From contig NZ_CP082301.1 of assembly GCF_019880305.1 (NCBI RefSeq), forward strand, positions 682,001 through 746,000: a stretch of 64,000 nucleotides of DNA. Reading direction: 5' to 3'. Positions 4,521 through 35,339 of the stretch are shown one piece after another. Under the pieces are notes generated by a model. That model made no database searches. It worked only from the letters and a program-made list of their open reading frames with translations, and was not told where the DNA came from. This stretch comes from Streptomyces decoyicus (GTDB taxonomy: Bacteria > Actinomycetota > Actinomycetes > Streptomycetales > Streptomycetaceae). A program made the translations under genes and the position numbers. Positions within the stretch are counted from its first letter, which is position 1. Each line of letters opens with the position of its first letter.

Positions 4521-5780
4521 ATGGGCAGGGAGCGCGTGCGGAGACCGGAGCTCGATCATGCGGCGCTGTTCGCAGCGACACCGAGCGCTTGCCTGGTCCT
4601 TGACCCGGACCTCGTGATCGTGGACGTCAACCAGGCATACCTCCAGGCAACCGGGCGGACCCGGGACGATCTGCTCGGGCAGTACGTCTTCGACGCCTTC
4701 CCCGACAACCCCGCGGACCCCGACGCCGAAGGCGTACAGAACCTGCATCCCTCGCTGAACCGGGTGCTGGCTTCCGGGGAGCCGGACACGATGGCGGTCC
4801 AGCGGTACGACATCCCCGTTGCCGGTCAGCCGGGCCTGTTCGAGGAGCGCTGGTGGTCCACCATCAACACTCCCGTCATCGGTCCGGGCGGCACGGTGGC
4901 CTGGATCATCCACCGGGTGGAGGACGTGACGGCGTTCGTGCACTCCCGCCGGGCCCGTCAGATGCCGGGCGGGCAGCTGAGCGAGCGCGAGGAGGCGATG
5001 GAGGCCGAGCTGTACGTCCGGGCGCGTGCGCTGCAACACCTCAACGAGGAACTGCGCCGGGCCCATGCCCGCGAACGCCAGGTCGCGCTCACCCTCCAGG
5101 AGGCCATGCTCCACTCCCCCGACCTCGCCCGGCACCGCGACATCGCGGTGCGCTACCTCCCCGCCATCGGCTCACTGAACATCTGCGGCGACTGGTACGA
5201 CATCGTCGACCTCCCGGGGGAGGCATTCGCCGTCGCGGTCGGAGATGTCGTCGGTCACGGGCTGGAGGCCGCCGCCGTCATGGGCATGCTCCGCAGCGCC
5301 CTCAGCGCCGCCGCCCGCTCGGTCGTGGGACCCGCCCAGGCACTGAAGGTGCTGGGCCTGTACGCCCGCTCCGTCGACAAGGCGCTGGCCACCACCGTCG
5401 TCCAGGTACTGATCGACACCGGCCGCCACGAGGTCACCTACAGCAGCGCAGGTCACCCACCCCCCGTCCTGCTGCACGCCGACGGCACCCACACGCTCCT
5501 GGACCAGGCCACCGACCCGCCCCTGGGCGCCCACCCCGAGCATGAGCCACGCCCCCAGGCCCGCCTTGCCTACACCCCCGGCGACACCCTCGTCCTCTAC
5601 ACCGACGGGCTCATCGAACGCCGCGACGAAGACATCGACGCCAGTCTCGCCCGCCTCACCGACGCCCTCTCCCGCTTCAGCAGGTTCAGCCCGGAACGCC
5701 TCGCCGACGCACTGCTGGCACGCCTCGGCGTCAGCGCCGGTGCCCGCGACGACATCGCCCTGGTCATCGTCCGCCTCTAG
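4521..5780 (+). CDS. PAS-domain SpoIIE/RsbU-type PP2C phosphatase (first of four)
   Basis: About 419 residues. Residues 10-130 form a PAS domain (LDHAALFAATPSACLVLDPD onward), followed by a helical linker with DUF-like heptads around 150-195. A PP2C serine phosphatase domain with metal-binding motifs GDWYDIV, GDVVGHGLEAA, YTDGLIERR and RDDIALV runs to the end. Such enzymes dephosphorylate anti-sigma-factor antagonists in partner-switching circuits, with the PAS domain as sensor. No HATPase or STAS partner is adjacent. The start is uncertain: GGAGGAGG directly abuts ATG 4521, so GTG 4536 or GTG 4506 are alternatives. The frame is open far upstream, but that part looks non-coding. Confidence 0.88.
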   Translation: MGRERVRRPELDHAALFAATPSACLVLDPDLVIVDVNQAYLQATGRTRDDLLGQYVFDAFPDNPADPDAEGVQNLHPSLNRVLASGEPDTMAVQRYDIPVAGQPGLFEERWWSTINTPVIGPGGTVAWIIHRVEDVTAFVHSRRARQMPGGQLSEREEAMEAELYVRARALQHLNEELRRAHARERQVALTLQEAMLHSPDLARHRDIAVRYLPAIGSLNICGDWYDIVDLPGEAFAVAVGDVVGHGLEAAAVMGMLRSALSAAARSVVGPAQALKVLGLYARSVDKALATTVVQVLIDTGRHEVTYSSAGHPPPVLLHADGTHTLLDQATDPPLGAHPEHEPRPQARLAYTPGDTLVLYTDGLIERRDEDIDASLARLTDALSRFSRFSPERLADALLARLGVSAGARDDIALVIVRL

Positions 5781-5890
5781 CCCCGAAGGACCATGCGCGC
5801 AACTCGACCAGCGGATGCAGCCAGGAGATGTGTCCCGCACGATAGGGGACACAAGAAGATCCAGATCCTCGAACTGCTTCGGGGTGGCCC

Positions 5891-6511
5891 ATGACAGAGC
5901 ATGCAGGACTTCACCGTGCGAACGGCCGTCGTGTGCCGCAGGACCGCTCGGCGCGAGCGCCGACGGGAACTGCGCCACTCGACCCCCCACACCGGCTTCC
6001 CAGGGCGACCGGTGTGCGGGTGTCCCTCGTCGTGGCCCTTGTCGTGGCCCTCACCGGTACCGGCGCGTTCTTCGGCCTTGCCGGGGCGGACAGCCCCGGT
6101 TCCGGAACGGCTGCGGTCTCCACCCCCGTCGCGGGAAGGGCAGTCGGCCCCTCGCTCGGCCACACCTGGACACAAGCCGTCCACCCCCGCCCCCAGGCCT
6201 CGCCGACGCAGTCATCCACGCCGGATCCCGCGGACGTGGTCCAGACGTATTTCAGTGCCGTCAACGAGGGTGACTACATTGCCGCTTGGGCGCTGGGCGG
6301 GAAGCAGCACATCGCCGGGAACACCTTCGACGCCTTCGTGCAGTCCTTCAACACCACGAACATGTACGAGGTCACCATCAATGCGGTGGTCGGCAACAAG
6401 GTCGAGGTCGAGCTCGACCAGCTGCTGACCGACGAAACCCACCGCCACTTCACCGGCACCTACACCGTGGAGGACGGAGTGATCGTCGCCGCCGACATCC
6501 ACCCCAAGTGA
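5891..6511 (+). CDS. Membrane-anchored or secreted hypothetical protein
   Basis: A 206-residue protein with a basic, disordered N-terminus (residues 1-42), one hydrophobic segment VSLVVALVVALTGTGAFFGLA at about 44-65, a Pro/Ser/Thr-rich linker and a C-terminal globular part from about residue 110. The globular part (DPADVVQTYFSAVNEGDYIAAWAL) resembles the start of NTF2-like or DUF4878-type extracytoplasmic domains; that resemblance is my inference. The long N-terminus before the hydrophobic segment suggests a signal anchor rather than a cleaved signal. The start ATG at 5891 follows GGGGTGG. No partner gene is evident. Confidence 0.7.
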   Translation: MTEHAGLHRANGRRVPQDRSARAPTGTAPLDPPHRLPRATGVRVSLVVALVVALTGTGAFFGLAGADSPGSGTAAVSTPVAGRAVGPSLGHTWTQAVHPRPQASPTQSSTPDPADVVQTYFSAVNEGDYIAAWALGGKQHIAGNTFDAFVQSFNTTNMYEVTINAVVGNKVEVELDQLLTDETHRHFTGTYTVEDGVIVAADIHPK

Positions 6512-6617
6512 CCCCGCGGAGCACCGGGCGGGGCACCGGGGCGGCACGCGGCCACTCCCCGCGGCCGTAGCGGTGGCGGTCAGCACTCCGGCCGCCGGCC
6601 TGGCCTAACGTGGCCGG

Positions 6618-7991
6618 GTGACAGCGAGTGTGCGGAAGCGGGAGTGCCACCGCGACCTGTGGGCGGCTGCGGGTGCGGTGGCACTGTTCGTCCTGGCGGC
6701 AGTCGTCGGGCGCGTCATCAACCGGGCCGTTTACGGCTCCGAGGGGATCCTGCGGCTGGGGTGGCCGCCGTTGTACGCGTGGTGGCTGCCGCATGTCGGC
6801 CCCGGCACCCCGGTGGCGGTGGCCGTCGCGGCGGCGGTGGTGGTCTACGGTCCGTCGACCGCACAGCGTCTGTCGTGGCGGGTGCTGGTGCCGGCCGTGT
6901 GGACCGCGGCGATGGCCTGGACCTGGTCGCTCGCACTCGTGGACGGATGGAGCCGTGGCGTCGCCGAGCGGCTGACCACCAGCCTGGAGTACCTGCAATC
7001 CGTCGACGACGTGCACGACGTGGGCGCTTTCCTGCGCGACTTCACGCACCACATTCTGGTCGGCTCGCCCGGCATCTGGCCGGCACATGTGGCCGGTCAC
7101 CCGCCCGGCGCGCTGCTGACGTTCGTCGGCCTGGACCGGATCGGGCTGGGCGGCGGCGCCTGGGCCGCCGTCTGGTGCCTCACCGTCGGAAGCTCGCTCA
7201 CCGCGGCCGTCATGGTGACCGTCCGCGCACTGAGTGGTGAGGAACTGGCGCGCCGGGCCGCCTCGTTCCTCGTACTGGCCCCGGCGGCGGTATGGATCGG
7301 GGTCAGCGCCGACGGCTACTTCGCGGGGGTGGCCGCCTGGGCCATCGCCCTGCTGGCCCTGGCGGCCACCCGCAGTACGCGGGTGCCGCGTCTCACCGCC
7401 CTGGGTGCGGGGCTGCTGCTCGGCTGGGCCTGGTACCTCTCCTACGGCCTGACCGTTCTCGTCGTCCTCGGCGCCGCGGTGCTGCTGCTCGCGCGCTCGG
7501 TCCGCCCGTTGCCGTATGTGCTGCTGGGCGTGCTGGTATGGGCGGCGGCCTTCACCTCGGCCGGGTTCTGGTGGCTGGACGGGTATACGACGCTGGTCGA
7601 GCGTTACTACCAGGGCGCCGCGAAAGTACGCCCCTACAGCTACTTCCTCTGGGCGAACCTGGCGGCCCAGCTACTGACCGTGGGCCTGGCCACCGTCGCC
7701 GGGCTGCGCCGCGCCGCCGGTCCGCTGTGGCATGCGGTGCGGAGGATGCGGCGCGAGCCGCCGAGCGGGCGGGAGGCCCTCGCCGTGCTGGTCGCGGCAG
7801 GGCTGTGCATGATGCTGCTCGCGGATGTGTCCGGGATGAGCAAGGCGGAGACCGAACGGATCTGGCTGTCCTTCGCGGTGTGGACGCTGCCCGCAAGTGC
7901 CCTGCTGCCACGCCGCGTTCACTCCTGGTGGCTGGCCGCGCAGGCCCTCCTCGCGCTGCTGGTCAACCATCTGCTGCTGACCGGCTGGTGA
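6618..7991 (+). CDS. Polytopic integral membrane protein, GT-C-like
   Basis: A 457-residue protein with about ten or eleven hydrophobic helices spread along its whole length. A long periplasmic-type loop between helices 3 and 4 contains VAGHPPG, a motif seen in actinobacterial GT-C-like membrane proteins. That suggests a polyprenyl-sugar-using glycosyltransferase or a related uncharacterised membrane protein, but no catalytic DxD or EXD pair stands out near a first loop, so the function is unassigned. The start is GTG 6618 (MTASVRKRECHRDLW), with basic residues before the first helix. The gene converges on the leftward oxidoreductase pair. Confidence 0.72.
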   Translation: MTASVRKRECHRDLWAAAGAVALFVLAAVVGRVINRAVYGSEGILRLGWPPLYAWWLPHVGPGTPVAVAVAAAVVVYGPSTAQRLSWRVLVPAVWTAAMAWTWSLALVDGWSRGVAERLTTSLEYLQSVDDVHDVGAFLRDFTHHILVGSPGIWPAHVAGHPPGALLTFVGLDRIGLGGGAWAAVWCLTVGSSLTAAVMVTVRALSGEELARRAASFLVLAPAAVWIGVSADGYFAGVAAWAIALLALAATRSTRVPRLTALGAGLLLGWAWYLSYGLTVLVVLGAAVLLLARSVRPLPYVLLGVLVWAAAFTSAGFWWLDGYTTLVERYYQGAAKVRPYSYFLWANLAAQLLTVGLATVAGLRRAAGPLWHAVRRMRREPPSGREALAVLVAAGLCMMLLADVSGMSKAETERIWLSFAVWTLPASALLPRRVHSWWLAAQALLALLVNHLLLTGW

Positions 7992-23649: not shown

Positions 23650-23815
23650 ACGCAGGCCGGCCCGCTCTCCATAACAGCAGGTGAGAGGGCCTACGGGGCG
23701 AGCTTCGGGGCCACCCGGGCACCCGGTCCGGCCTCCGCCAGGTGGCCTGCGGGCGTCGGGTGCCGGTGCCGGACGGTGCCGCTCCGGGAGTCGGCCGCAA
23801 GACGAGGAGAAGACC

Positions 23816-25711
23816 ATGGCACGTGCAGTGGGTATTGACCTTGGTACGACGAACTCGGTGGTCAGCGTGCTGGAGGGCGGTGAGCCCACGGTCATCAGCA
23901 ACGCCGAGGGCGCCCGGACCACCCCGTCGGTGGTCGGCTTCGCCAAGGGCGGCGATGTGCTGGTGGGTGAGATCGCCAAGCGGCAGGCCGTGACCAACGT
24001 CGACCGCACCGCGCGGTCGGTCAAGCGCCACATGGGTGAGGCGCAGTGGCGTTTCCCGGAGAGCGGCGACATCGACGGCAAGCAGTACACCGCGCAGGAG
24101 ATCTCCGCGCGGGTGCTGCAGAAGCTCAAGCGCGATGCCGAGGAATACCTGGGCGAGGACGTCACGGATGCCGTGGTCACCGTTCCGGCGTACTTCAACG
24201 ACGCCCAGCGCACCGCGACCAAGGAGGCCGGGGAGATCGCGGGCCTCAAGGTGCTGCGGATCGTCAATGAGCCGACCGCCGCCGCCCTGGCGTACGGCCT
24301 CGACAAGGAGAACGACCAGACCATCCTGGTCTTCGACCTCGGTGGCGGCACCTTCGACGTCTCGCTGCTGGACATCGGCGACGGCGTCGTCGAGGTGAAG
24401 GCGACCAACGGCGACACCCACCTGGGCGGCGACGACTGGGACCAGCGCATCGTCGATCACCTGACCAAGCAGTTCAAGAACGCGTACGGCATCGATCTCT
24501 CCCAGGACAAGATGGCCACCCAGCGGCTGCGGGAGGCCGCCGAGAAGGCGAAGATCGAACTGTCGGCGGCGACCGAGACCACGATCAATCTGCCGTATCT
24601 GAGCGCGTCGGCCGACGGGCCGCTGCACCTGGACGAGAAGCTCACCCGCTCACAGTTCGAGCAGCTGACCGCCGACCTGCTCGAACGGTGCAAGACCCCG
24701 TTCCACAATGCGGTGAACGACGCCGGGATCAAGGTCGCCGACATCAATCACGTGATCCTGGTCGGCGGCTCGACCCGGATGCCCGCAGTGACCGAGCTGG
24801 TCAAGGAGCTGACCGGCAAGGACCCGCACAAGGGCGTCAACCCGGACGAGGTCGTCGCCATCGGCGCCGCCCTCCAGGCCGGTGTGCTCAAGGGCGAGGT
24901 CAAGGACGTCCTCCTGCTGGACGTCACCCCGCTGTCCCTCGGTATCGAGACCAAGGGCGGCATCATGACCAAGCTCCTCGAACGCAACACCACGATCCCG
25001 ACCAAGCGCTCCGAGATCTTCACGACGGCCGAGGACAACCAGCCGTCCGTGCAGATCCAGGTCTACCAGGGCGAGCGCGAGATCGCGGCCTACAACAAGA
25101 AGCTCGGAATGTTCCAGCTGACCGGTCTGCCGCCGGCCCCGCGCGGGGTCCCGCAGATCGAGGTCTCCTTCGACATCGACGCCAACGGCATCATGCACGT
25201 GACCGCGAAGGACCTGGGCACCGGCAAGGAACAGAAGATGACCGTCACCGGCGGCTCCTCGCTGCCGAAGGACGACATCGACCGGATGGTCCGCGACGCC
25301 GAGCACCACGCCGAGGAGGACCGCCGCAGGCGGGAGACCGCGGAGACCCGCAACCAGGCCGAGCAGCTCGTCTACCAGACCGAGAAGTTCCTCAAGGACA
25401 ACGAGGAAAAGGTCCCCGGTGACATCAAGACCGAGGTCGAGACGGCCATCGGCGAGGTGAAGGAGAAGCTCAAGGCCGACTCCGGCGAAGGCGGCGACAC
25501 CGCGGAGCTCCGTACCGCCACCGAGAAGCTGGCGACCGTCTCGCAGAAGCTGGGCCAGGCCATGTACGCCGACACCCAGTCGCAGGCTCAGGCCCAGGGC
25601 TCCGACGCGGCCGCCGGCGAGGGCGGATCGGGCACAGCTGCCGGCGATCAGGACGATGTCGTCGATGCGGAGATCGTCGATGACGACAAGCAGGAGGGAG
25701 GCGCACGATGA
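23816..25711 (+). CDS. dnaK: DnaK-type Hsp70 chaperone (second-copy style)
   Basis: A 631-residue protein from ATG 23816 ([20 protein letters not shown]). The nucleotide-binding domain shows the phosphate-1 loop GIDLGTTNS, the connect/phosphate-2 motif [14 protein letters not shown] and the adenosine motif [10 protein letters not shown]. The linker [12 protein letters not shown] and substrate-binding domain follow, then a helical lid and an Ala/Gly/Gln-rich tail ending in acidic residues. It is complete and should be active. Unlike the main Streptomyces dnaK-grpE-dnaJ-hspR operon, only grpE follows, overlapping by 4 bases (ATGA). Its position directly before the gas-vesicle cluster suggests a dedicated folding role, which is inference. 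Confidence 0.95.
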
Positions 25712-26355
25712 ACCGTCCGACCAACGTGCGTGGCCCCGCGCAGCCGCCGCTGGCCATCGTCGGACACGGGCCGGGGGAAAGCCCCGCCGCGGTCCCGCCC
25801 CGCGCCACCCCGGCGGAGGAGGGCACCGGGCAGAGCACGGGAAGGCCGTCGGGTGAAGGCCGGGACTTCGACGGGACGGCCGGCCGCGACCAGGCCCCGG
25901 CGCGGTCGGCGCCGCAGGAAGCGGTGCTGCGCGCCGAGCTCCGGGAGCGTACGGCCGATCTTCAGCGGCTGAAGGCCGAGTATGACAACTACCGCAAGCG
26001 GGTCCACCGGGACCGCCTCGCGGTCGGCGAGATCGCCGTGGCCAATGTACTGAGCCGGCTGCTGCCGGTGCTCGATTCCCTCGCCGAGGCCAGGGAGCAG
26101 GGCGAGGTCACCGGTGGTTTCCAGCGCGTCGCCGAGGCTCTGCACAACGAACTGGGGGCACTGGGCCTCCAGCCCTTCGGGACGGTGGGCGCCCCCTTCG
26201 ACCCGCTGATCCATGAGGCCATCACCTACACCCCCGACGACCGGTTGGAGCAAGCCACCTGCACCGCGGTGCTCCGCCAGGGCTACCGCGTCGGCGACCG
26301 TCTGCTGCGCCCCGCTCAGGTGATCGTCGCCGGCGAACCGCCCGCCGGCCCGTAA
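25708..26355 (+). CDS. grpE: GrpE nucleotide-exchange factor
   Basis: A 215-residue protein. Residues 1-70 are Pro/Gly-rich and disordered; a long coiled coil follows ([26 protein letters not shown] at about 72-97), then the beta-wing domain with [20 protein letters not shown] near 150-172. GrpE releases ADP from DnaK. The start ATG 25708 overlaps the dnaK stop (ATGA), so translation is coupled and stoichiometry kept. No dnaJ is present; J-protein function must come from elsewhere. A 12-bp terminator hairpin follows, marking the end of the operon. Confidence 0.93.
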
Positions 26356-26419
26356 GGAGCGCCCCGGACCTGGCCACCCTGATTCCGTCGTACGCAACGT
26401 CGTGGCGTCGGCTGCCCTA

Positions 26420-26447
26420 GCTGTGCCGCTTCTCGAAGCGGCACAGC
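26420..26447 (+). terminator. Terminator of the dnaK-grpE operon
   Basis: GCTGTGCCGCTT (26420-26431), loop CTCG, and a perfect complementary arm 26436-26447; T-rich bases follow at 26461-26467. It lies 65 bases after the grpE stop. This separates the chaperone operon from the gas-vesicle region, although read-through could still occur. Confidence 0.82.
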
Positions 26448-26764
26448 GCCGCAGCCGGCGTTTCTTGTCACGGTGACGGGTGGGGTCTTGCTGTCGGGGC
26501 TCGGCCCGTCCTGGATAAATGCACCCCTGAATTCCCGTGCCGCGTCATGGAATTCATCGCGCTGCCCTCCCCCCGTTCTCGCGGCCTCTTTCCCGCACTT
26601 ACCCCCTCGCCTCCCTACTGCCTTGCCGCCTTCCCCCGCAGGCCGGAGCCGGCGACGGTGAACGCGGCCAGGAACGGGCTCGGAGACGGACAGCTCTTCC
26701 GTACCGGATGCCGTCGGGATCCGTGCGCTGACGGACAAGTGATCCGCGAGATCGACCGTGGGCC

Positions 26765-26848
26765 GATCGTTGAGCTGATCGTTGAGCTGATCGCTGAGTT
26801 GACCGGCGAGTTGACCGGTGAGTTGACCGGTGAGTTGACCGGCGTAAC
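26765..26848. repeat. Seven tandem 12-bp iteron-like units upstream of gvpO
   Basis: Units of the form GA(T/C)CG(T/G)(T/C)GAG(C/T)T run head to tail at 26765, 26777, 26789, 26801, 26813, 26825 and, degenerate, 26837. The first two read GATCGTTGAGCT and the fifth and sixth GACCGGTGAGTT, so the array drifts from one variant to another. It lies 161 bases before gvpO in a 653-base gene-free stretch (26356-27008). Frames through it are open on both strands because the unit is a multiple of three; I judge none to be a real gene. Confidence 0.8.
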
Positions 26849-26898
26849 CGGTGAGTTGAACCACGGAGATCGCCTTCCGTAAGGCGGAATAACCGCTC

Positions 26899-26916
26899 AT
26901 GCGTGCGGCTACGCAT
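26899..26916. promoter_or_regulatory. ATGCGT-N6-ACGCAT inverted repeat before gvpO
   Basis: ATGCGT (26899-26904), six bases, ACGCAT (26911-26916), exact. It stands 92 bases before the gvpO start, between the 12-bp array and the gene, where an operator would be expected. No clear -35/-10 pair could be placed. Confidence 0.4.
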
Positions 26917-27008
26917 ATGTTCGAGCCCCCGGGGCACGCGGTCCTCTATCGCCACCAGACATCCACCGTACTTCGACAAAAACCCTACGACGCACGACAG
27001 GCGGGATC

Positions 27009-27317
27009 ATGGCGACCGAGGAAAACACGGAACACAAGGAAGTGCACAACGGACGGCCGGAACGGGTCGCCGCGCCCACGGCAATGCGCCACGCCTCCGG
27101 GCAACTTGCACAGATGCTCCAATGCGAGCCCGGCTCGGTGTCGGCGCTCAAGGCCACCGATGACGGGTGGTTGGCGGATGTGGAAGTGGTGGAGATCGAA
27201 AGGGTCCCGGACACCGCGAGCGTGATGGCTTCCTACCGCGTTTACCTCGATGAACAGGGCCAACTTATGGGCTACGAGCGCACGCGCCGATATGGGCGCG
27301 GCCAGATCGACAGGTGA
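27009..27317 (+). CDS. gvpO: Gas-vesicle protein GvpO
   Basis: A 102-residue protein. The first 22 residues are polar (MATEENTEHKEVHNGRPERV), and the rest is a compact alpha/beta domain with DDGWLADVEVVEIERVPDT and MASYRVYLDEQGQLMGYERTRRYGRG, the hallmark of the GvpO family. GvpO is needed for vesicle formation in haloarchaea and heads the Streptomyces gvp clusters, as here. ATG 27009 follows a weak GCGGGA. gvpA starts 78 bases downstream. Confidence 0.93.
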   Translation: MATEENTEHKEVHNGRPERVAAPTAMRHASGQLAQMLQCEPGSVSALKATDDGWLADVEVVEIERVPDTASVMASYRVYLDEQGQLMGYERTRRYGRGQIDR

Positions 27318-27394
27318 TCCGGCTCGGGCTCGGCCGCCCACGACATCACGCGCCCCCATGACCCGCTCCAGTCAACTGGAAGGGATGATCGACC

Positions 27395-27838
27395 GTGACT
27401 GCCGTTCAGCAAACCAACGCATCGACCAGCGGAAGTGGTTCGGGAAATCTTTACGATGTTCTCGAGCTGATTCTCGACCGAGGGCTTGTCATTGACGCCT
27501 TTGTGCGGGTCTCCCTCGTCGGAATCGAAATTCTCAAGATTGACGTGCGCGTCGTCGTGGCGAGCGTGGATACCTATCTGCGCTTCGCCGAGGCGTGCAA
27601 CCGTCTGGACCTGGAATCGGGCCGCAAGGCGCCGAGTCAGCTCACCGACCTGGTCGGGGAGGCAACGGAAAGCGGCGCCAAAGGAAAGTCGAAAGGCGCG
27701 CTGACAGGAGCCGTTGAGGCATTCAGCGAATCCCTGCAGAAGGGCCAGGAGGGATCCGAGGAGGAGGCGGAAGAGCGTCCGGCACGGAAGTCTTCCAGCT
27801 CCACCAACCGCCGCACGGCCCGCCGTCGGGAGGACTGA
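27395..27838 (+). CDS. gvpA: Major gas-vesicle shell protein GvpA, with C-terminal extension
   Basis: A 147-residue protein. Residues 18-67 are the conserved GvpA core ([20 protein letters not shown], then [20 protein letters not shown]) that forms the amphipathic ribs of the hollow vesicle wall. The usual protein is about 70-75 residues; here a further 60-70 follow, first helical then Ser/Lys/Arg/Glu-rich (residues 115-147). Such tails are known from actinobacterial GvpA and may face the cytoplasm. GTG 27395 follows GGAAGGG. gvpF begins 4 bases after the stop, so the two are one transcript. Confidence 0.95.
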
Positions 27839-27841
27839 ACC

Positions 27842-28555
27842 ATGGCCACCTACCTCTACGCCATCACCGGTGCCGACCACCCCTTGCGGCTGAACGACGT
27901 CGCCGGGGTCGGTGACCCGGCAGCGCAACTGCGCACCGTCAAGACGAAGGACCTGTGTGCCGTGGTCAGCGACGCACCGGCGGAACTACGGGCCAAGCGC
28001 CGCGATGTGGTGGCCCACCAGGACGTTCAGGAACGTCTGCTGGCCGACGGTGCCGCCCTGCCGATGCGCTTCGGGCTGGTCGGCCCCGACGACGATCAGG
28101 TGGCCTCCGTCCTGGAGGAACACCGCGACGCCTACACCCAGCGCCTCGCAGAGATCGCCGGCTGCCGCGAGTACCACCTCAAGGTCGCACGCGAGGAGGA
28201 CGATCTGCTGCGGGAGATCGTCCAGGAATCCGCCGAGGTACGACGGCTCAACGAGCGCACCCGGCAGAACCCGGACGCGTACGACGACAAGGTGGCCCTG
28301 GGCGAGCTGATCTCGCAGGAGGTCCAGGCCCGCCAGGACCGTGCGCGTACGGACATCGTGGCCCTTCTGACTCCGGCCGCGGTACGCACCGCGGCCGTCG
28401 AACCGACGAAGCGTCACTTCCTCAGCGTGTCGTTCCTCGTGGAGCGGGAGAAGGCAGCGGCCTTCGCCGAGACGGTCCATGCGGAGGCCGAGAAGCGCGG
28501 TGACGCCTACACCTTCGATCTGCACGGCCCGCTGCCGCCGTACAGCTTCGTCTGA
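27842..28555 (+). CDS. gvpF: Gas-vesicle assembly protein GvpF
   Basis: A 237-residue GvpF/L-family protein. It has the N-terminal ferredoxin-like fold (YLYAITGADHP, then LCAVVSDAPAEL) with the family signature LPMRFGLVGPDD near residue 75, a helical middle and a second ferredoxin-like domain ending FDLHGPLPPYSF. GvpF binds GvpA and is thought to keep it soluble and feed it to the growing shell. It starts 4 bases after gvpA and leads into gvpG by 24 bases. A paralogue, GvpL, is encoded 2.7 kb downstream. Confidence 0.95.
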   Translation: MATYLYAITGADHPLRLNDVAGVGDPAAQLRTVKTKDLCAVVSDAPAELRAKRRDVVAHQDVQERLLADGAALPMRFGLVGPDDDQVASVLEEHRDAYTQRLAEIAGCREYHLKVAREEDDLLREIVQESAEVRRLNERTRQNPDAYDDKVALGELISQEVQARQDRARTDIVALLTPAAVRTAAVEPTKRHFLSVSFLVEREKAAAFAETVHAEAEKRGDAYTFDLHGPLPPYSFV

Positions 28556-28579
28556 CCTCGCGAGCGGAGATCCGTTGTC

Positions 28580-28837
28580 ATGGGCCTCATCACACAGATC
28601 CTGACCCTGCCGCTGGCCCCGGTGCGGGGCACGGTCTGGGTCCTTGACCAAGTGGTGCTCACCGCCGAGCGCGAGTACTACGACCCGGCGCCGGTCCACG
28701 AGGAACTGGCCGCGCTGGAACAGCAGTTGCTGGACGGCACCCTCGGAGCCGACGAGTTCGACTCCCGCGAGGACGAGCTCCTGGACCGGCTGGAGTGGCT
28801 GGAGGCCCAGCAGCGTCGACTGCATACCGACTCCTGA
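28580..28837 (+). CDS. gvpG: Gas-vesicle protein GvpG
   Basis: An 85-residue helical protein with the GvpG N-terminus MGLITQILTLPLAPVRGTVWVLDQV and a coiled-coil-like, Glu/Leu-rich C-terminal half (EELAALEQQLLDGTLGADEF). GvpG is one of the minor proteins required for vesicle formation and interacts with GvpF/L. The length is normal. It sits between gvpF and gvpY with short spacers, all on one strand. Confidence 0.93.
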   Translation: MGLITQILTLPLAPVRGTVWVLDQVVLTAEREYYDPAPVHEELAALEQQLLDGTLGADEFDSREDELLDRLEWLEAQQRRLHTDS

Positions 28838-28864
28838 GCACGGGGAGAACGAGGTGTACGAGAG

Positions 28865-29584
28865 ATGATGAACAACGCCAAGATAGGTGTGGCCCTCGTA
28901 GGGGGCTACCTTCTGGGGCGCACGAAGAAAGCCAAGCTGGCCATCGGCCTGGGCATGTTCCTGGCCGGCAAGAAACTGAACCTGGATCCCCGGCAGCTGG
29001 GCACACTGGTGGCCAACTCACCGGTTCTCGGCCCCCTCAACGACCAGGTGCGCAAGGAGCTGGTGGACGCCACGAAGTCGGCCGCCGGCGCCGCGCTCAC
29101 CCAGCGGATGAACGGTCTCGCCGACTCCCTGCACGAGCGGACCCTGGCCCTCGACGAGGGCGGGAGCGGCGGTGCGGGACGCGCGGCGGGCGATGCGGAT
29201 CAGGAACCCGAGGACGAGCCACGGGACGACGCCGAGGACGTCGACGACGCCTCGGACGCCGCGGAATCCGAGAGCGAGAAGCCCGCCCCGCGCCGTAAGG
29301 CACCTGCCAAGTCGTCCGCGAACTCGGCCACGAAGACGGCGGCGAAGACCGCCACGAAGTCGGCGTCGGCCAAGAAGTCGACCGCCACCGACCGGTCGTC
29401 CAAGCCGCGGCGCTCGGCGTCGAGCACCTCCAAGAACTCGGGTAAGGCGGCGGCCGCGTCCTCCCGGGGACGCACCTCCACCGCCCCGGGGCGGAAGGCC
29501 GCCTCCGGTGCCCGCAACAAGGCCTCGAACAAGGCTTCCGGCGCGGCGCGCACGGTTGCCGACCGTGGGGGCAGCAATGGCTGA
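28865..29584 (+). CDS. gvpY: GvpY: helical domain plus acidic patch and Lys/Ala-rich histone-like tail
   Basis: A 239-residue protein. Residues 1-20 include a small hydrophobic Gly-rich segment (IGVALVGGYLLG) followed by KKAKLAIGLGMFLAGKKL; residues to about 105 are helical. An acidic run (about 112-138) then gives way to a tail of about 100 residues made of Lys, Arg, Ala, Ser and Thr, much like histone H1 tails or Streptomyces HU-type tails. GvpY is specific to actinobacterial clusters and its job is unknown. The gene overlaps gvpZ by 8 bases, and the partner has an acidic tail, so the pair may bind each other. Confidence 0.85.
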   Translation: MMNNAKIGVALVGGYLLGRTKKAKLAIGLGMFLAGKKLNLDPRQLGTLVANSPVLGPLNDQVRKELVDATKSAAGAALTQRMNGLADSLHERTLALDEGGSGGAGRAAGDADQEPEDEPRDDAEDVDDASDAAESESEKPAPRRKAPAKSSANSATKTAAKTATKSASAKKSTATDRSSKPRRSASSTSKNSGKAAAASSRGRTSTAPGRKAASGARNKASNKASGAARTVADRGGSNG

Positions 29585-30773
29585 GTCCACCTTCAGCAAG
29601 ATCAAGGACGAGGTGACCAAGAGCCCGGCGGCCGACCAGCTCAAGGAAGAGCTACAGCACTACCTCCAGGCCCGGGCGGAACACGCGGTCACCCAACTCG
29701 GCCACAAGCTGGGCGAGAGCGTCGGCAAGCTCGCCGAACCCGGCCAGGGACCCGGCGGCCTGGTGAACAGTCTGGCGAAGGGCGGCAAGGCTCTCGGCGA
29801 GGGCAAGTCGCCGCAGCAGGCGGCGCTGACCGCGGGCGCCTCCCACCTCAAGGACACCGTCAAGGACAAGATGAAGAGCCTGTTCGGCAAGGGCCGCAAG
29901 GGCGGCGGCGGCAAGTCCAAGAGCGTGACCATCGTCGAGGACATCGATGTGGGTGTCCCCGTGCGCGAGGCGTACGACCAGTGGACGCAGTTCCAGGAAT
30001 TCAGCACCTTCGCCAAGGGCGTCGTCAGCGTCGAGAAATCCGATGACACCAGCAGCAACTGGAAGGTGAAGGTCGCCAAGTCCACGCGTAGTTGGCGGGC
30101 CAATGTGACCGAGCAGGTGCCCGACGAGCGGATCACCTGGACCACCGAAGGTGCGAAGGGCACGGTCAAGGGTGTGGTGACCTTCCACCGCCTGACCGAC
30201 AACCTGACGCGGGTGCTGTTGGTTCTCGAGTACTTCCCCAAGGGCCTGTTCGAGAAGACGGGCAACATCTGGCGCGCCCAGGGCCGCCGGGCCCGGCTGG
30301 ACCTCAAGCTCTACCGCAAATTCATCATGATGCGCGGCGAGGCCACCGATGGCTGGCGCGGTGAGATCCAGGACGGCGAGGTCGTGGTCGAGCACGATGA
30401 CGCCGTCGCGGCGGAGGAGGAGGACCGGGAGGACGGCGAGCGCGGCTCCGATGACGTGCCCCCCGGGGACGACGAGGCCGACGAGGATGCCGACGCGGAG
30501 GACGAGGACCTCGAGGACGACGAAGACGCCGAGGACCTTGAGGACGCCGACGACGAGGGCGTGGACCACCACGACGTGGACGACCACGACGATCTCGCGC
30601 CGGAAGCCGATGCCGATGCCGACGAAGACGACCTCGAAGAGCCCGTCGACGAGGACGACGACCGCGGGGAGCCGCTCGACGAGGACGACGACCCGGCGGA
30701 CGAGCGGGACCCGTACGACGAGGACGAGCCGCCGGCACCCCGCCGGGGCCGCCGTGCCGCCGTTGCCCGCTGA
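29577..30773 (+). CDS. gvpZ: GvpZ: SRPBCC-fold protein with very acidic C-terminal tail
   Basis: A 398-residue protein from ATG 29577. Residues 1-110 are helical and basic; about 115-255 form an SRPBCC/START-like hydrophobic-pocket domain (VTIVEDIDVGVPVREAYDQW, then FSTFAKGVVSVEK, ERITWTTEG); about 268-388 are dominated by Asp and Glu. The fold could bind a lipid or hydrophobic ligand, perhaps to shield nascent hydrophobic GvpA, which is inference. The open frame upstream in gvpY is shadow. The 8-base overlap with gvpY implies coupled expression. Confidence 0.88.
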   Translation: MAESTFSKIKDEVTKSPAADQLKEELQHYLQARAEHAVTQLGHKLGESVGKLAEPGQGPGGLVNSLAKGGKALGEGKSPQQAALTAGASHLKDTVKDKMKSLFGKGRKGGGGKSKSVTIVEDIDVGVPVREAYDQWTQFQEFSTFAKGVVSVEKSDDTSSNWKVKVAKSTRSWRANVTEQVPDERITWTTEGAKGTVKGVVTFHRLTDNLTRVLLVLEYFPKGLFEKTGNIWRAQGRRARLDLKLYRKFIMMRGEATDGWRGEIQDGEVVVEHDDAVAAEEEDREDGERGSDDVPPGDDEADEDADAEDEDLEDDEDAEDLEDADDEGVDHHDVDDHDDLAPEADADADEDDLEEPVDEDDDRGEPLDEDDDPADERDPYDEDEPPAPRRGRRAAVAR

Positions 30774-30803
30774 CCCGTCCCGACCGCACAGACGAGGCTG
30801 ATC

Positions 30804-31229
30804 ATGTCCGATTCACTGGCCGGCCGTATGGGACCTTCCTCCGGTCCGTCCCCGTACGGCCGGCAGGGGGCTTCCGCCAACCTGGCCGACATCCTGGAGC
30901 GCGTCCTCGACAAGGGCGTCGTCATCGCGGGCGACATCCAGATCAATCTGCTCGACATCGAGCTGCTGACCATCAAGCTCCGGCTGCTCGTCGCCTCCGT
31001 CGACAAGGCCAAGGAAATGGGCATCGACTGGTGGGAACACGACCCCTCCCTCTCGTCCCGCGCCCGCCCGCCGCAGCAGGTCCCCGACGGGCGTACGCCG
31101 GCCGTCGGCGGTGACTCGCTGGCCGAGGAGAACCAGCAGCTGCGCGCCGAACTCGCCGCACTGCGCGCGGCCATCGGCTCCCCCGAGGGCTCCGGCGCAC
31201 ACCAGGCAGACCGTAAGGAGGAGCAGTGA
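30804..31229 (+). CDS. gvpJ: GvpJ, GvpA-like minor shell protein
   Basis: A 141-residue protein. After a Ser/Gly/Pro leader, residues 26-70 repeat the GvpA core (LADILERVLDKGVVIAGDIQ, then LLDIELLTIKLRLLVASVDKA), with the extra MGIDWWEHD typical of GvpJ. The C-terminal third is a short helix (EENQQLRAELAALRAA) and a charged end. GvpJ is thought to form the vesicle tips or nucleate assembly. The stop overlaps the GTG start of gvpL (GTGA). Confidence 0.93.
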   Translation: MSDSLAGRMGPSSGPSPYGRQGASANLADILERVLDKGVVIAGDIQINLLDIELLTIKLRLLVASVDKAKEMGIDWWEHDPSLSSRARPPQQVPDGRTPAVGGDSLAEENQQLRAELAALRAAIGSPEGSGAHQADRKEEQ

Positions 31230-32155
31230 ACTGCCCCATGCCAGGAGCCGAGGAGACTGCCGCCTCGCCGCGCACCCTCGCCCATCCCGCTGACCAGCCC
31301 CCTGAACAGCAAGAATCCGACCGCTCCCGGATCTCGTACGTCTACGTCATCGGCCGCACCGGCACCGCCCTCGAGGCGTCGGCTTCTCAGCTGACCGGCC
31401 TGCGGGACGGCCCCCTCCGGACGGTCACCTCCGGCCGCCTCACGGCCCTGGTTTCCTCCGTCCCCGCCGACGCCTTCAGCGCGGAGGGCATGAAGGCGCA
31501 GCTGGAGGACCTGACACAGCTGGAGGCGATCGCGCGGACGCACCATGCCGTCGTCGAGGCCGCCTGTGCCGGGGCCATGGTGCTGCCCATGCGCCTGGCC
31601 ACGGTGTATCTGGACGATGCCCGGGTGCGGTCGATGCTGGACGAGCGCGGCACCGAGTTCGACGCGCTGCTCTCCCGGCTCGAAGGCCATGCCGAAGTGG
31701 GGGTGAAGGTGTACGCGGACGCACGCGCGGCGGCCGCGGCCGAAGCCCCCGCGGCCGCGACCGGCGCCTCGGGATCTCCCGCGCCCGGCAGCCCGGCCCC
31801 CGCCGCGTCCGCGGTCAGCCCCGGCCGGGCCTACCTGCAGCAGCGGCGGGCCCAACGGCGTACGCATCGTGATGCCTACCGCGCGGCGGGAGCCGTCGCC
31901 GCCGATGTGCGGGTCCGGGTGGCCGACTTGGCACGGGACATGGTCGCGCACCGCCCGCAGCAAGGTGAGCTGGCGTCCGGTACCGGCGAGAACATCGCCA
32001 ACGAGGCGTATCTGGTCCCCACGGACCGCATCGGGGAGTTCCACCGGGCCCTGAAGGGACTGGCCGATGGTGTCCCCGGCGTACGTGTCGAGATCACCGG
32101 TCCGTGGGCCCCGTACTCCTTCGCGACGCCGCCCGCGGAAAGCGGGAGCCCGTGA
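31226..32155 (+). CDS. gvpL: Gas-vesicle assembly protein GvpL
   Basis: A 309-residue GvpF/L-family protein from GTG 31226, with AAGGAGGA just before it. Residues 38-110 are the first ferredoxin-like part (ISYVYVIGRTG, LTALVSSVPADAF), and MVLPMRLATVYLDD carries the family signature. An Ala/Pro-rich insert (about 170-205) separates it from the second half, which ends VRVEITGPWAPYSFA. It probably acts as the hub that contacts other minor Gvp proteins. It overlaps gvpJ and gvpS by 4 bases each. Confidence 0.93.
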   Translation: MNCPMPGAEETAASPRTLAHPADQPPEQQESDRSRISYVYVIGRTGTALEASASQLTGLRDGPLRTVTSGRLTALVSSVPADAFSAEGMKAQLEDLTQLEAIARTHHAVVEAACAGAMVLPMRLATVYLDDARVRSMLDERGTEFDALLSRLEGHAEVGVKVYADARAAAAAEAPAAATGASGSPAPGSPAPAASAVSPGRAYLQQRRAQRRTHRDAYRAAGAVAADVRVRVADLARDMVAHRPQQGELASGTGENIANEAYLVPTDRIGEFHRALKGLADGVPGVRVEITGPWAPYSFATPPAESGSP

Positions 32156-32391
32156 AAGGGAATGACCTTGAGGCCGCGTTCTCGGACGCCTCGTTCGTGG
32201 CGGACCACTCCGAGGAGGAATCTCTCGCCGGGCGGCAGATTGCTCTGATCGATCTCTTGGACCGTCTCCTGAACGGCGGCGCGGTCCTGACCGGAGATGT
32301 GGTGCTGTCCATTGCCGAGGTGGATCTTGTCCATATCAATCTGCGCGCGGTGATTCGCTCGATCACACCCGACAGTCCGGCCCCGTGGTGA
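32152..32391 (+). CDS. gvpS: GvpS, small GvpA-like shell protein
   Basis: A 79-residue protein from GTG 32152, overlapping the gvpL stop (GTGA). The core IALIDLLDRLLNGGAVLTGD and VVLSIAEVDLVHINLRAVIRSI is a GvpA-family fold, diverged from both GvpA and GvpJ. It is found in actinobacterial clusters as the third GvpA-type protein. A longer frame to 32104 lies inside gvpL and is ignored. Confidence 0.88.
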   Translation: MKGNDLEAAFSDASFVADHSEEESLAGRQIALIDLLDRLLNGGAVLTGDVVLSIAEVDLVHINLRAVIRSITPDSPAPW

Positions 32392-32464
32392 AGCTCCGTG
32401 TTGACGCATCCGGGCTCCACCCCGCCTCCCCGAGGAGAAATTCCCAAGTGACGAGGGATACGCC

Positions 32465-32881
32465 ATGACGCAGGAACCGGTGAATCCGGCCGCGCCCGTG
32501 AAGCCCGCCTTCGCGGAGGTGGCGCAGGCGGCGGCACGGGCATTCGACCTGGTGCCGGCCGGGGCCGAGGAGCGTCGGCACGGGCAGGACAGCAGCATCG
32601 CCCAACGGCTGAAGACCGACCCGGAGACGGTCGAACGCGATCTCATGAAATTGGTGCTGACCATCGTGGAGCTCTTGCGGCAGCTCATGGAGCGCACCGC
32701 ACTGCACCGCGTCGACCAGGGCGATCTGAGCGAGGAGCAGGAAGAGCGAGTCGGGATGACGCTGATGATTCTCCAGGACCGTATGACGGAACTCTGTGAG
32801 CGCTACGGGCTCACGATGGAGGACCTCAATCTCGATCTCGGTCCCCTTGGCTCCCTGTTGCCGCGCGATGACGTCGGCTGA
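32465..32881 (+). CDS. gvpK: Gas-vesicle protein GvpK
   Basis: A 138-residue helical protein with the GvpK signature RLKTDPETVERDLMKLVLTI and LLRQLMERTALHRVDQGDLS, then MTLMILQDRMTELCERYGLT. GvpK is required for vesicle formation in haloarchaea. It is 73 bases after gvpS, and is the last gene of the cluster. No convincing terminator is seen. The following 373 bases contain no gene that I can support. Confidence 0.93.
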   Translation: MTQEPVNPAAPVKPAFAEVAQAAARAFDLVPAGAEERRHGQDSSIAQRLKTDPETVERDLMKLVLTIVELLRQLMERTALHRVDQGDLSEEQEERVGMTLMILQDRMTELCERYGLTMEDLNLDLGPLGSLLPRDDVG

Positions 32882-32970
32882 CCGGCTCAGCAACGTCGCC
32901 CTCGTCGAGCGTCCCCGCTGAATTCCTGATCGGTGGCGCATACCTGACCGCTATCGCCCGACGCCGATGT

Positions 32971-32986
32971 TTCAACGGTGGTTGAA
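32971..32986. promoter_or_regulatory. TTCAAC-N4-GTTGAA palindrome after gvpK
   Basis: An exact 6-bp inverted repeat with a GGTG centre, 90 bases after the gvpK stop and 270 bases before the next gene. It may be an operator for the small membrane gene, or of no account. Confidence 0.3.
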
Positions 32987-33254
32987 CGGCAACACGCATT
33001 ACCAGGGCCGCAGAGCACACCAGGTTCCGTCGCTCCCCCGCGGTAATCCGCAGCGCGTTGGCAAGGGCCGCTGCGGAAAGGCCGGACATCGTCCGGACCG
33101 CCGCCAAGGGCGCAAGCGCGCAGTCGACGCCCGGCCGGTGCCGGGCGGACCGGGGTCGTCGTACCGGGGGCGTCGGTCCCGCACTCGTCATCAGATCGGC
33201 GTCATGGTTTCTTCCATGCGCTCTCCCGTCCTACCTACACGGAGGTGCAGGGTT

Positions 33255-33425
33255 ATGGTTCCGCTGCTTCTGGTTCTGCTTCTCGCGCTGCTTCTCTTCG
33301 GCGCCGGATTCGCGCTCAAGGCGCTGTGGATCGTCGCCGTGGTCGTGCTGGCATTCTGGCTGCTCGGCTTCCTCATGCGTTCGACCGGCGCCGGCGGCCG
33401 GCGCGGCCGCTGGTACCGCTGGTAG
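33255..33425 (+). CDS. Small hydrophobic membrane protein
   Basis: A 56-residue protein with two near-contiguous hydrophobic segments (VPLLLVLLLALLLFGAGFAL and ALWIVAVVVLAFWLLGFLM) and a Gly/Arg/Trp-rich end. This matches the short hydrophobic, lmo0937/DUF5670-like proteins common in Streptomyces, of unknown role and often stress-induced. GGAGGT sits 8 bases before ATG 33255, deciding this start over an upstream frame of 96 codons. A 15-bp hairpin follows 24 bases after the stop, so it is a single-gene transcript. Confidence 0.8.
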   Translation: MVPLLLVLLLALLLFGAGFALKALWIVAVVVLAFWLLGFLMRSTGAGGRRGRWYRW

Positions 33426-33449
33426 ACGCCGGCCCCGATCCACTCGACG

Positions 33450-33485
33450 TCCCCGGCGGGCCGATCCCCTTCGGCCCGCCGGGGA
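33450..33485 (+). terminator. 15-bp terminator hairpin
   Basis: Left arm 33450-33464 and right arm 33471-33485 pair perfectly around TCCCCT. It closes the small membrane protein transcript before the cholesterol oxidase gene. Confidence 0.85.
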
Positions 33486-33635
33486 ACGGTATTTTCCGGC
33501 GGCCATTGCAACTGATGGGCCGTCACCCTACTCTTCCGGCACACCCCCACCGCACCGGGGCGCTCGTACGGTCTCACCCCTACGATCCGTGCGCGGTGCC
33601 GCGGGGCCGGCGCGCCGCGCGCCGGAGGGACAGCC

Positions 33636-35339
33636 ATGTCCGACGACAGCGCTCGAAGAGCATCCTTCACCCGCCGCACGCTGCTGACCGGGGCCGCCGC
33701 CGCGGGGCTCGCCGCGGCAGCCGGATTGCAGCCCGCTCACCGCATTCCCGCAGGCAGTGCCGCGACCACCCTCACCCCTCCGCCCGGCTTTCCCGCGGGC
33801 ATCCCGCTCTCCCAGCAAGCCTTCCGCAACTGGTCGTTGGAGATCATCGTCGAGGGGGTCTGGACCGCCTCTGCGCGCACCCCCGACGACGTGGTCGCTC
33901 TCGCCAACTGGGCCCATGAGCACGGCTACCGGCTACGGGCCCGGGGCAAGGGGCACACCTGGTCGCCGCTGGTGCTGCCCGCCGGGGCCGACACCAACCG
34001 CACGGTCATCGTCGACACCACGTCCCACCTCACCGCGGTCAGTGTGCACGGCGGCGGACCCGGGAGCGTCACCGCGCAGACGGGGGCGACCCTCGACACC
34101 ATCCTCGCCCGCCTGGAGGAGGCAGGGCTCGGGCTCGCCACCACCACCGCGCCCGGCGACCTCACCATCGGCGGGGTGCTCGCCATCGGCGGCCACGGCA
34201 CGGGACTGCCCACCGCCACCGAACACCCGCCCGCGGGGTCCGGCTTCGGCACCCTGAGCTCCCTGGTCACCTCCCTCACCGCCGTGGTGTGGAGCGCGAC
34301 GGCGGGCCGCTATGTGCTCAAGACCTTCACCCGCTCCGACCCGGACATCCGCGCGTTCCTGGTCCATCTGGGCCGCGCGTTCCTCACCGAGGTGACGATG
34401 ACCGCGGCGGCCAACACCCGGCTGCGCTGCCAGAATTGGTTCGATGTGAACGTGGGCACCGTCTTCGGTCCGCCCGGTACAGGCGGCCGCACGATCAGCT
34501 CCTACCTGGAGCGCACCGGACGCATCGAAGCGATCTGGTTCCCGTTCACCGACGTGCCCTGGCTGAAGGTGTGGAGCCCGGCACCGTCCAAGCCGCTGCT
34601 CGCCAAGCAGATCGACGTCCCGTACGCCTACACCTTTGCCAACCGTGTCACCGAGGAGATGTCGGGGCTGCTCGGGGAGATCGCCGCGGGCGGCGGCGAC
34701 AAGACGCCCGCGTTCACCAAGCTCGCCATGTCCATCGTCGGGTCCGGGCTGATCGTCACCGGTACCTGGGACGTCTGGGGCTGGTCGAGAAACAGCCTGC
34801 TCTACGTCGAGCCGTCGACACTGCGGATCGTCGAAGCGGGGTGGGCGGTACTGACGTCCCGGGCGAATGTGCAGCGCGTGGTGGGGGACTTCCACTCCCG
34901 CTACCAGAGCGTGCTGACGGCGCATCAGAATCGGGGCTCGTACCCGGTCAACGGACCGATCGAGCTGCGTATCACCGGTACGGACCCCCTCGACGGTCCG
35001 CTGCTGTCCCCGGCGCGTGCCCGCGCCGACCACCCCGAGTGGGACACCGTCGTGTGGCTCGACTTCGCCACCTATCCCGGCACGCCCGGTGCGGCCCCCT
35101 TCTTCCGCGAGCTGGAACAGTGGATCTGGCAGACCTACACCGGCTCGTATGCGACCGTGCGCCCCGAGTGGTCCAAGGGCTGGGCCTACACGGACGGCGG
35201 GCCGTGGACGGACCCTGCCACCCTGGGCGGCACCGTCCCGGCCGCGTTCGAGGACTGGCGCACCGCCCGGGACACGCTGAACCGCCATGACCCGGCACGG
35301 GTGTTCTCCAACGCCTTCCTCGACACTCTGCTGCCCTGA
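33636..35339 (+). CDS. Type II (covalent-FAD, VAO-fold) cholesterol oxidase, Tat-exported
   Basis: A 567-residue protein. Residues 10-31 are a Tat signal (FTRRTLLTGAAAAGLAAAAG). The mature enzyme aligns by eye with Brevibacterium sterolicum cholesterol oxidase BCO2 from end to end: VVALANWAHEHGYRLRARGK followed by His107, which matches the His that carries FAD covalently; LTIGGVLAIGGHGTGLP; WFPFTDVPWLKVW; the active-site Glu443/Arg445 pair in GPIELRITG; and RPEWSKGWA and the C-terminal RVFSNAFLDTLLP. It oxidises and isomerises 3-beta-hydroxysteroids outside the cell, giving H2O2. Streptomyces mostly use the unrelated GMC-type enzyme. No steroid catabolism genes are adjacent. Confidence 0.9.
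   Translation: MSDDSARRASFTRRTLLTGAAAAGLAAAAGLQPAHRIPAGSAATTLTPPPGFPAGIPLSQQAFRNWSLEIIVEGVWTASARTPDDVVALANWAHEHGYRLRARGKGHTWSPLVLPAGADTNRTVIVDTTSHLTAVSVHGGGPGSVTAQTGATLDTILARLEEAGLGLATTTAPGDLTIGGVLAIGGHGTGLPTATEHPPAGSGFGTLSSLVTSLTAVVWSATAGRYVLKTFTRSDPDIRAFLVHLGRAFLTEVTMTAAANTRLRCQNWFDVNVGTVFGPPGTGGRTISSYLERTGRIEAIWFPFTDVPWLKVWSPAPSKPLLAKQIDVPYAYTFANRVTEEMSGLLGEIAAGGGDKTPAFTKLAMSIVGSGLIVTGTWDVWGWSRNSLLYVEPSTLRIVEAGWAVLTSRANVQRVVGDFHSRYQSVLTAHQNRGSYPVNGPIELRITGTDPLDGPLLSPARARADHPEWDTVVWLDFATYPGTPGAAPFFRELEQWIWQTYTGSYATVRPEWSKGWAYTDGGPWTDPATLGGTVPAAFEDWRTARDTLNRHDPARVFSNAFLDTLLP

Follow-up and report, generated by a model that had tools for sequence, protein, structure and literature searches.

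Gas-vesicle clusters are common in soil actinobacteria, for which buoyancy has little obvious use. Most of the sampled clusters carry, beside gvpZ, a gene called gvpY whose product lacks a family model, a structure and an assigned function. In Streptomyces coelicolor the genes are SCO6503 and SCO6504, with second copies SCO0653 and SCO0654, all listed as hypothetical proteins (PMC5839063), and the literature searched holds no description of the tails or the function of GvpY and GvpZ. Accessory gas-vesicle genes of Serratia sp. ATCC 39006 also bear the names gvpY and gvpZ (PMC4982088, PMC10344784), which were given separately; the likeness noted is one of name, and the Serratia results should not be transferred.

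The window analysed here, a stretch of 64,000 nucleotides from Streptomyces decoyicus, contains a complete actinobacterial gas-vesicle cluster at 27009-32881, in the order gvpO-A-F-G-Y-Z-J-L-S-K:

27009-27317, forward strand: gvpO (PF05800)
27395-27838, forward strand: gvpA (PF00741), with a short, acidic-then-basic C-terminal tail
27842-28555, forward strand: gvpF (PF06386)
28580-28837, forward strand: gvpG (PF05120)
28865-29584, forward strand: gvpY, accessory gas-vesicle gene, 239 aa
29577-30773, forward strand: gvpZ, 398 aa
29577-29584, forward strand: overlap of the gvpY stop and the gvpZ start, 8 bp, ATGGCTGA
30804-31229, forward strand: gvpJ (PF00741)
31226-32155, forward strand: gvpL (PF06386)
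32104-32391, forward strand: gvpS (PF00741); start codon uncertain, the reading frame overlapping gvpL
32465-32881, forward strand: gvpK (PF05121)

Gene names and the order O-A-F-G-Y-Z-J-L-S match those of the S. coelicolor cluster. An earlier model-made reading of the letters, hereafter the sequence-only reading, had noted the 8-base overlap of gvpY and gvpZ, which we confirm; an overlap of precisely this length recurs in 64 of 98 Streptomycetales pairs. The same reading held GvpN and GvpC to be missing: a profile search for GvpN gave no match above the TIGR02640 cut-off, which bears out the first absence, and the GvpC profile is uninformative, having given no match in any control genome. No Rfam element lies within 24000-34000 of the window. 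Two more gvp loci occur in this genome (at about 664-667 kb and about 1152-1155 kb) and only one more GvpY-GvpZ pair, making two pairs for three gvp loci; the second pair is located about 5 kb from gvpG, gvpF and gvpK of the 1.15-Mb cluster, on the opposite strand. Directly upstream of the gvp cluster in the window stand dnaK and grpE (23681-26355), which are not so placed in 80 related loci.

Both proteins combine an N-terminal part with a long, charged C-terminal tail, an architecture observed directly:

28865-29158, forward strand: conserved N-domain of GvpY, residues 1-98 (alignment, AlphaFold)
29159-29278, forward strand: acidic block of the GvpY tail, residues 99-138, net -14 in 40 residues
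29279-29581, forward strand: basic Lys/Arg/Ala/Ser block of the GvpY tail, last 101 residues, net +23, predicted disordered
29577-29921, forward strand: N-terminal region of GvpZ, residues 1-115, helical, amphipathic and Gly-rich
29922-30362, forward strand: SRPBCC/START-like domain of GvpZ, residues 116-262 (PF03364, Foldseek)
30363-30770, forward strand: acidic tail of GvpZ, 136 aa with 71 Asp/Glu, net -62, predicted disordered
30735-30770, forward strand: short basic cap (PRRGRRAAVAR) ending the GvpZ tail

In the alignment, the N-domain of GvpY shows an invariant LGRTKK motif flanked by two short hydrophobic helices and followed by a long amphipathic helix; AlphaFold places helices at residues 4-17, 21-37, 42-50 and 56-99. 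Relatives of GvpY occur in about 500 GTDB places. Profile and fold searches were without result for the N-domain, and for GvpY no relative emerged from Pfam, NCBIfam, PDB or fold comparison. Disorder is predicted from residue 99 on, and pLDDT is mostly below 60 past residue 100. The sequence-only reading had compared a basic tail of about 100 residues to a histone tail. Its basic character stands for the final 101 residues, but the plain histone-tail comparison is rejected, as the preceding acidic block leaves the whole tail near-neutral (+9 in the window protein, with a median of +2 over 190 pairs). This layout is extreme in a second cluster type, where about -46 to -64 gives way to +38 to +46 in PAKKTAAKK repeats. 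GvpY has no Pfam or NCBIfam match of meaningful score to a folded histone or HU domain and no Pfam match to the CarD/CdnL/TRCF N-terminal domain, and GvpZ belongs to SRPBCC; because none of their domains is present, GvpY is not a member of the CarD, HU or histone families.

The SRPBCC domain that the sequence-only reading saw in GvpZ is real. PF03364 matches with 61.5 bits (cut-off 23.4; E 1.3e-16), AlphaFold models the core as a helix-grip fold with high pLDDT, and Foldseek matches it to 3ggn, 2ns9, START and PYL proteins (E about 1e-6); in score and fold alike the core resembles the SRPBCC/START superfamily. Stand-alone actinobacterial SRPBCC relatives are common, measure 152-204 aa in our sample, and have neither the N-terminal helical region nor the acidic tail that GvpZ possesses in addition. 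The Asp/Glu-dominated tail had been put at about 120 residues and proves to be slightly longer, at 136. Its basic cap occupies the position at which GvpZ of Rhodococcus has AT-hooks or an H1-like end.

The charges of these tails are not due to chance. For comparison we took about 440 kb of this genome, made up of the window and stretches of 18-20 kb, in which 352 genes were called; the calls are crude, with GvpZ mis-started and GvpY skipped, and the figures serve as background only. The most negative 80-residue window of GvpZ reaches -50 and no other background gene falls below -23; the acid-then-basic score of GvpY is reached by none of the 352 genes, and opposite charges like those of GvpY-GvpZ by none of 210 adjacent same-strand pairs. 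Conservation is likewise a direct observation. Among 98 Streptomycetales pairs, the GvpZ tail is always negative and GvpY always ends in a positive block (median +20); only two of these GvpY tails lack an acidic block before it. A broader sample spans several families of actinobacteria and comprises 215 pairs, 190 of them non-identical; 95% of the latter keep the acid-then-basic order of GvpY and 99% a negative GvpZ tail, and charge segregation in GvpY amounts to 33 versus 9.5 for shuffled tails. The basic end of GvpY is weak (+3 to +11) in a Pseudonocardiaceae-like clade (within L270-L300). Opposite C-terminal charge, proposed earlier as a property to compare across clusters, is thus conserved in most of them. 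Acidic-then-basic disordered tails are a known kind of tail, carried here by an otherwise uncharacterised pair.

The two genes also go together: where only GvpY served as query to collect loci, GvpZ adjoins except at contig ends and in a few odd cases, and the genes are obligate neighbours across the sampled loci. Most pairs lie inside gvp clusters, including those of families f9, f91, f92 and f93, and in two loci the pair precedes gvpO. Pairs of the S. violaceusniger clade lie immediately downstream of rpsL-rpsG-fusA-tuf, with hundreds of kb between them and any gvpF; this orphan operon is seen in L175, L177, L180, L192 and L195 (about 5001-6640), the tuf-side gene order having been read in the last four. 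In S. zagrosensis the orphan pair and gvpF are on different contigs, and on a Kitasatospora plasmid the pair forms a separate divergent operon whose GvpY is annotated as 'histone protein'. Because GvpZ nearly always adjoins GvpY, even outside the gvp cluster, the pair is a real unit, its members linked to one another more tightly than to the cluster. A gene for a CsbD-family stress protein stands beside the pair on a Kitasatospora plasmid (L307, 9061-9234) and on a Rhodococcus plasmid (L306, 5689-5874). In L286 and L289 (family f92), second GvpY copies seem to have GvpZ upstream, possibly an artefact of the ORF start.

Motif content, again directly observed, brings in nucleic acid, one of the options of the sequence-only reading. 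GvpZ tails encoded on four Rhodococcus plasmids consist of a long acidic block followed by AT-hooks (three plasmids, with 3-4 tandem copies of PPARRGRPRKTAA, RGRP core) or by AKKTPAKK repeats (one plasmid):

L306, 8699-10042: GvpZ with AT-hooks
L336, 2989-4296: GvpZ with AT-hooks
L337, 2989-4602: GvpZ with AT-hooks
L338, from about 3001: GvpZ with H1-like repeats

In GvpY tails, A[KR]K triplets are 6-fold over shuffles family-wide, Streptomyces GvpY being of the Lys/Ala type. The window GvpY and GvpZ contain no AT-hook (RGRP); in Streptomyces tails at large RGRP occurs at the chance level given by shuffles and was discounted. Taken together, the AT-hooks and H1-like ends of Rhodococcus GvpZ and the H1-like repeats of GvpY support the nucleic-acid option at the level of sequence motifs. 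A similar layout is known from the unfolded DNA-binding domain of Myxococcus xanthus CarD, in which AT-hooks come after an acidic segment (PMC4374960), and some CarD orthologues have H1-like ends instead (PMC9304148). GvpY matches this succession in its disordered tail with an acidic segment and a basic Lys/Ala-rich end (95% of 190 pairs), and Rhodococcus GvpZ alternates between the two kinds of end as CarD orthologues do; unlike CarD, GvpY and GvpZ lack the CarD N-terminal domain and belong to gas-vesicle clusters. The likeness is a resemblance in sequence layout. The tails resemble known bacterial DNA-binding tails more closely than a simple plus-minus pair, hinting that vesicle building may be tied to the DNA of the cell. 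Other accessory Gvp proteins, too, have charged disordered regions: GvpO has a SAP domain with acidic repeats and linker in a distant cluster (L303, 8523-9137), and an acidic N-terminus with KKTAKRTAKK in the second cluster of this genome. Judged by their motifs, the SAP-domain and the KKTAKRTAKK forms of GvpO point the same way.

The sequence-only reading had favoured another model, in which the opposite charge of the tails chiefly binds GvpY to GvpZ and makes of them a condensate-like or chaperone-like hub, a complex coacervate, for vesicle assembly or clustering; we find it doubtful. Terminal charges are indeed opposite almost everywhere, and precedents exist: cavin-1 works through fuzzy electrostatics (PMC7875971), and GvpU of Bacillus (Priestia) megaterium is described in PMC11445434, which cites Li et al. 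2024, as a phase-separating protein that clusters vesicles by its phase transition. The clustering effect of GvpU was not reproduced by another group (PMC11223475), and GvpU, like the pair an accessory gas-vesicle protein and one proposed to organise vesicles spatially, comes from a different cluster type, and no sequence link was seen here. Phylogenetic independent contrasts of GvpY basic charge against GvpZ tail charge yield an overall r of -0.25 (p about 0.0005) and, with tail length removed, r = -0.39 (p = 0.016, 37 contrasts) outside Streptomycetales, but r 0.009 (p 0.90) within them; a sign test on the contrasts is not significant (p 0.056). In a first pass on the 98 Streptomycetales pairs, net charges were uncorrelated (rho -0.13) and the correlation for the basic block was weak. 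A simple charge balance between the tails is rejected by medians of +2 for GvpY and -54 for GvpZ. Moreover, the GvpZ tail was lost at least three times (L129; L133 with L044; L305, where it is nearly lost) in loci that the tree separates, and it is basic in the mycobacteria-like cluster L288. GvpY keeps +12 to +23 in the loci of loss, its basic end outliving the GvpZ tail. A frameshift origin of the three tail-less GvpZ was rejected, since the other frames are not acid-rich and gvpJ directly follows; in L195 (S. himastatinicus) the GvpZ tail does look frameshifted, with a basic reading and then an acidic end, and this locus was left out of the losses. Of the proposed pairing, the conserved opposite termini stand, whereas tail losses, unbalanced charges and, within Streptomycetales, a covariation explained by tail length count against it. 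Electrostatic contact cannot define the pair, though it may be of help to it, and as its organising principle electrostatics is only partly supported.

Two further explanations dispense with a charge-based partnership. The tails could be entropic bristles, disordered charged stretches that stop hydrophobic Gvp proteins such as GvpA and the GvpY hairpin from aggregating and need no specific partner. Acidic-then-basic low-complexity C-termini are common to GvpA (90% of 71 proteins), GvpY and GvpZ, and their composition is kept while sequence and length drift by short repeats, as such a role would predict; segregated charge order and H1 or AT-hook motifs go beyond the needs of solubility, and stand-alone SRPBCC relatives do without tails, which leaves this explanation rather doubtful as well. 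Alternatively, the pair may serve actinobacteria more generally, as a module that gvp clusters have often taken up, and not be a gas-vesicle factor as such. The orphan pairs by tuf and in S. zagrosensis, with gvp genes far away or on another contig, fit this possibility, as do gvpF loci without GvpY and the excess of gvp loci over pairs in the genome studied here. However, the great majority of pairs lie inside gvp clusters and every checked genome with an orphan pair still has gvp genes, and we regard it as improbable.

Our preferred reading, possible though less than probable by our own estimate, is that of a conserved partner pair whose tails would contact nucleic acid, with the GvpZ polyanion as modulator and the folded domains placed on the vesicle machinery. 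The basic end of GvpY, and in Rhodococcus the AT-hook or H1-like end of GvpZ too, would contact nucleic acid in the HMGA/H1-like fashion of CarD, and the N-terminal domains would hold the gas-vesicle assembly machinery, whereby assembly sites or finished vesicles would become tethered to the nucleoid (or to RNA). The polyanionic tail of GvpZ and the acidic block of GvpY could act as spacer and competitor that tune nucleic-acid binding, and could also keep sticky proteins soluble. It is chiefly the folded domains that would hold the GvpY-GvpZ complex together; contacts made by the charged tails would be fuzzy additions that could be dispensed with. Binding between GvpY and GvpZ, binding of DNA or RNA and the tethering role are thus what we infer from these data. 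A more specific version, in which HMGA/H1-like GvpY tails (with those of Rhodococcus GvpZ) tether vesicles or assembly sites to the nucleoid and the GvpZ polyanion serves as a DNA mimic that releases them, seems unlikely. A literature search for ParA-driven vesicle segregation gave no lead. Several points weigh against nucleic-acid contact: AT-hook cases are limited to one genus, Rhodococcus; the GvpY tail is near-neutral overall, and its DNA affinity may therefore be low; and polyampholyte tails can promote condensates or solubility in the absence of DNA. In turn, the location of the orphan pair by tuf shows that gas vesicles need not be involved in the function. Nonetheless, a conserved tail of apparently DNA-binding type makes the coupling of vesicle assembly to the chromosome a testable question, for which natural variants with tail loss and with AT-hooks are available for comparison.

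A distant actinobacterial gvp cluster, L302 (1089-1811 and 4770-6212), has a GvpZ without recognisable GvpY. In this cluster, GvpO carries charged GGDQSK repeats (2226-2735), and the N-terminus of GvpZ shares the motif LGLPxGPKxTDWSRVAKLGAGAAA with an upstream ORF.
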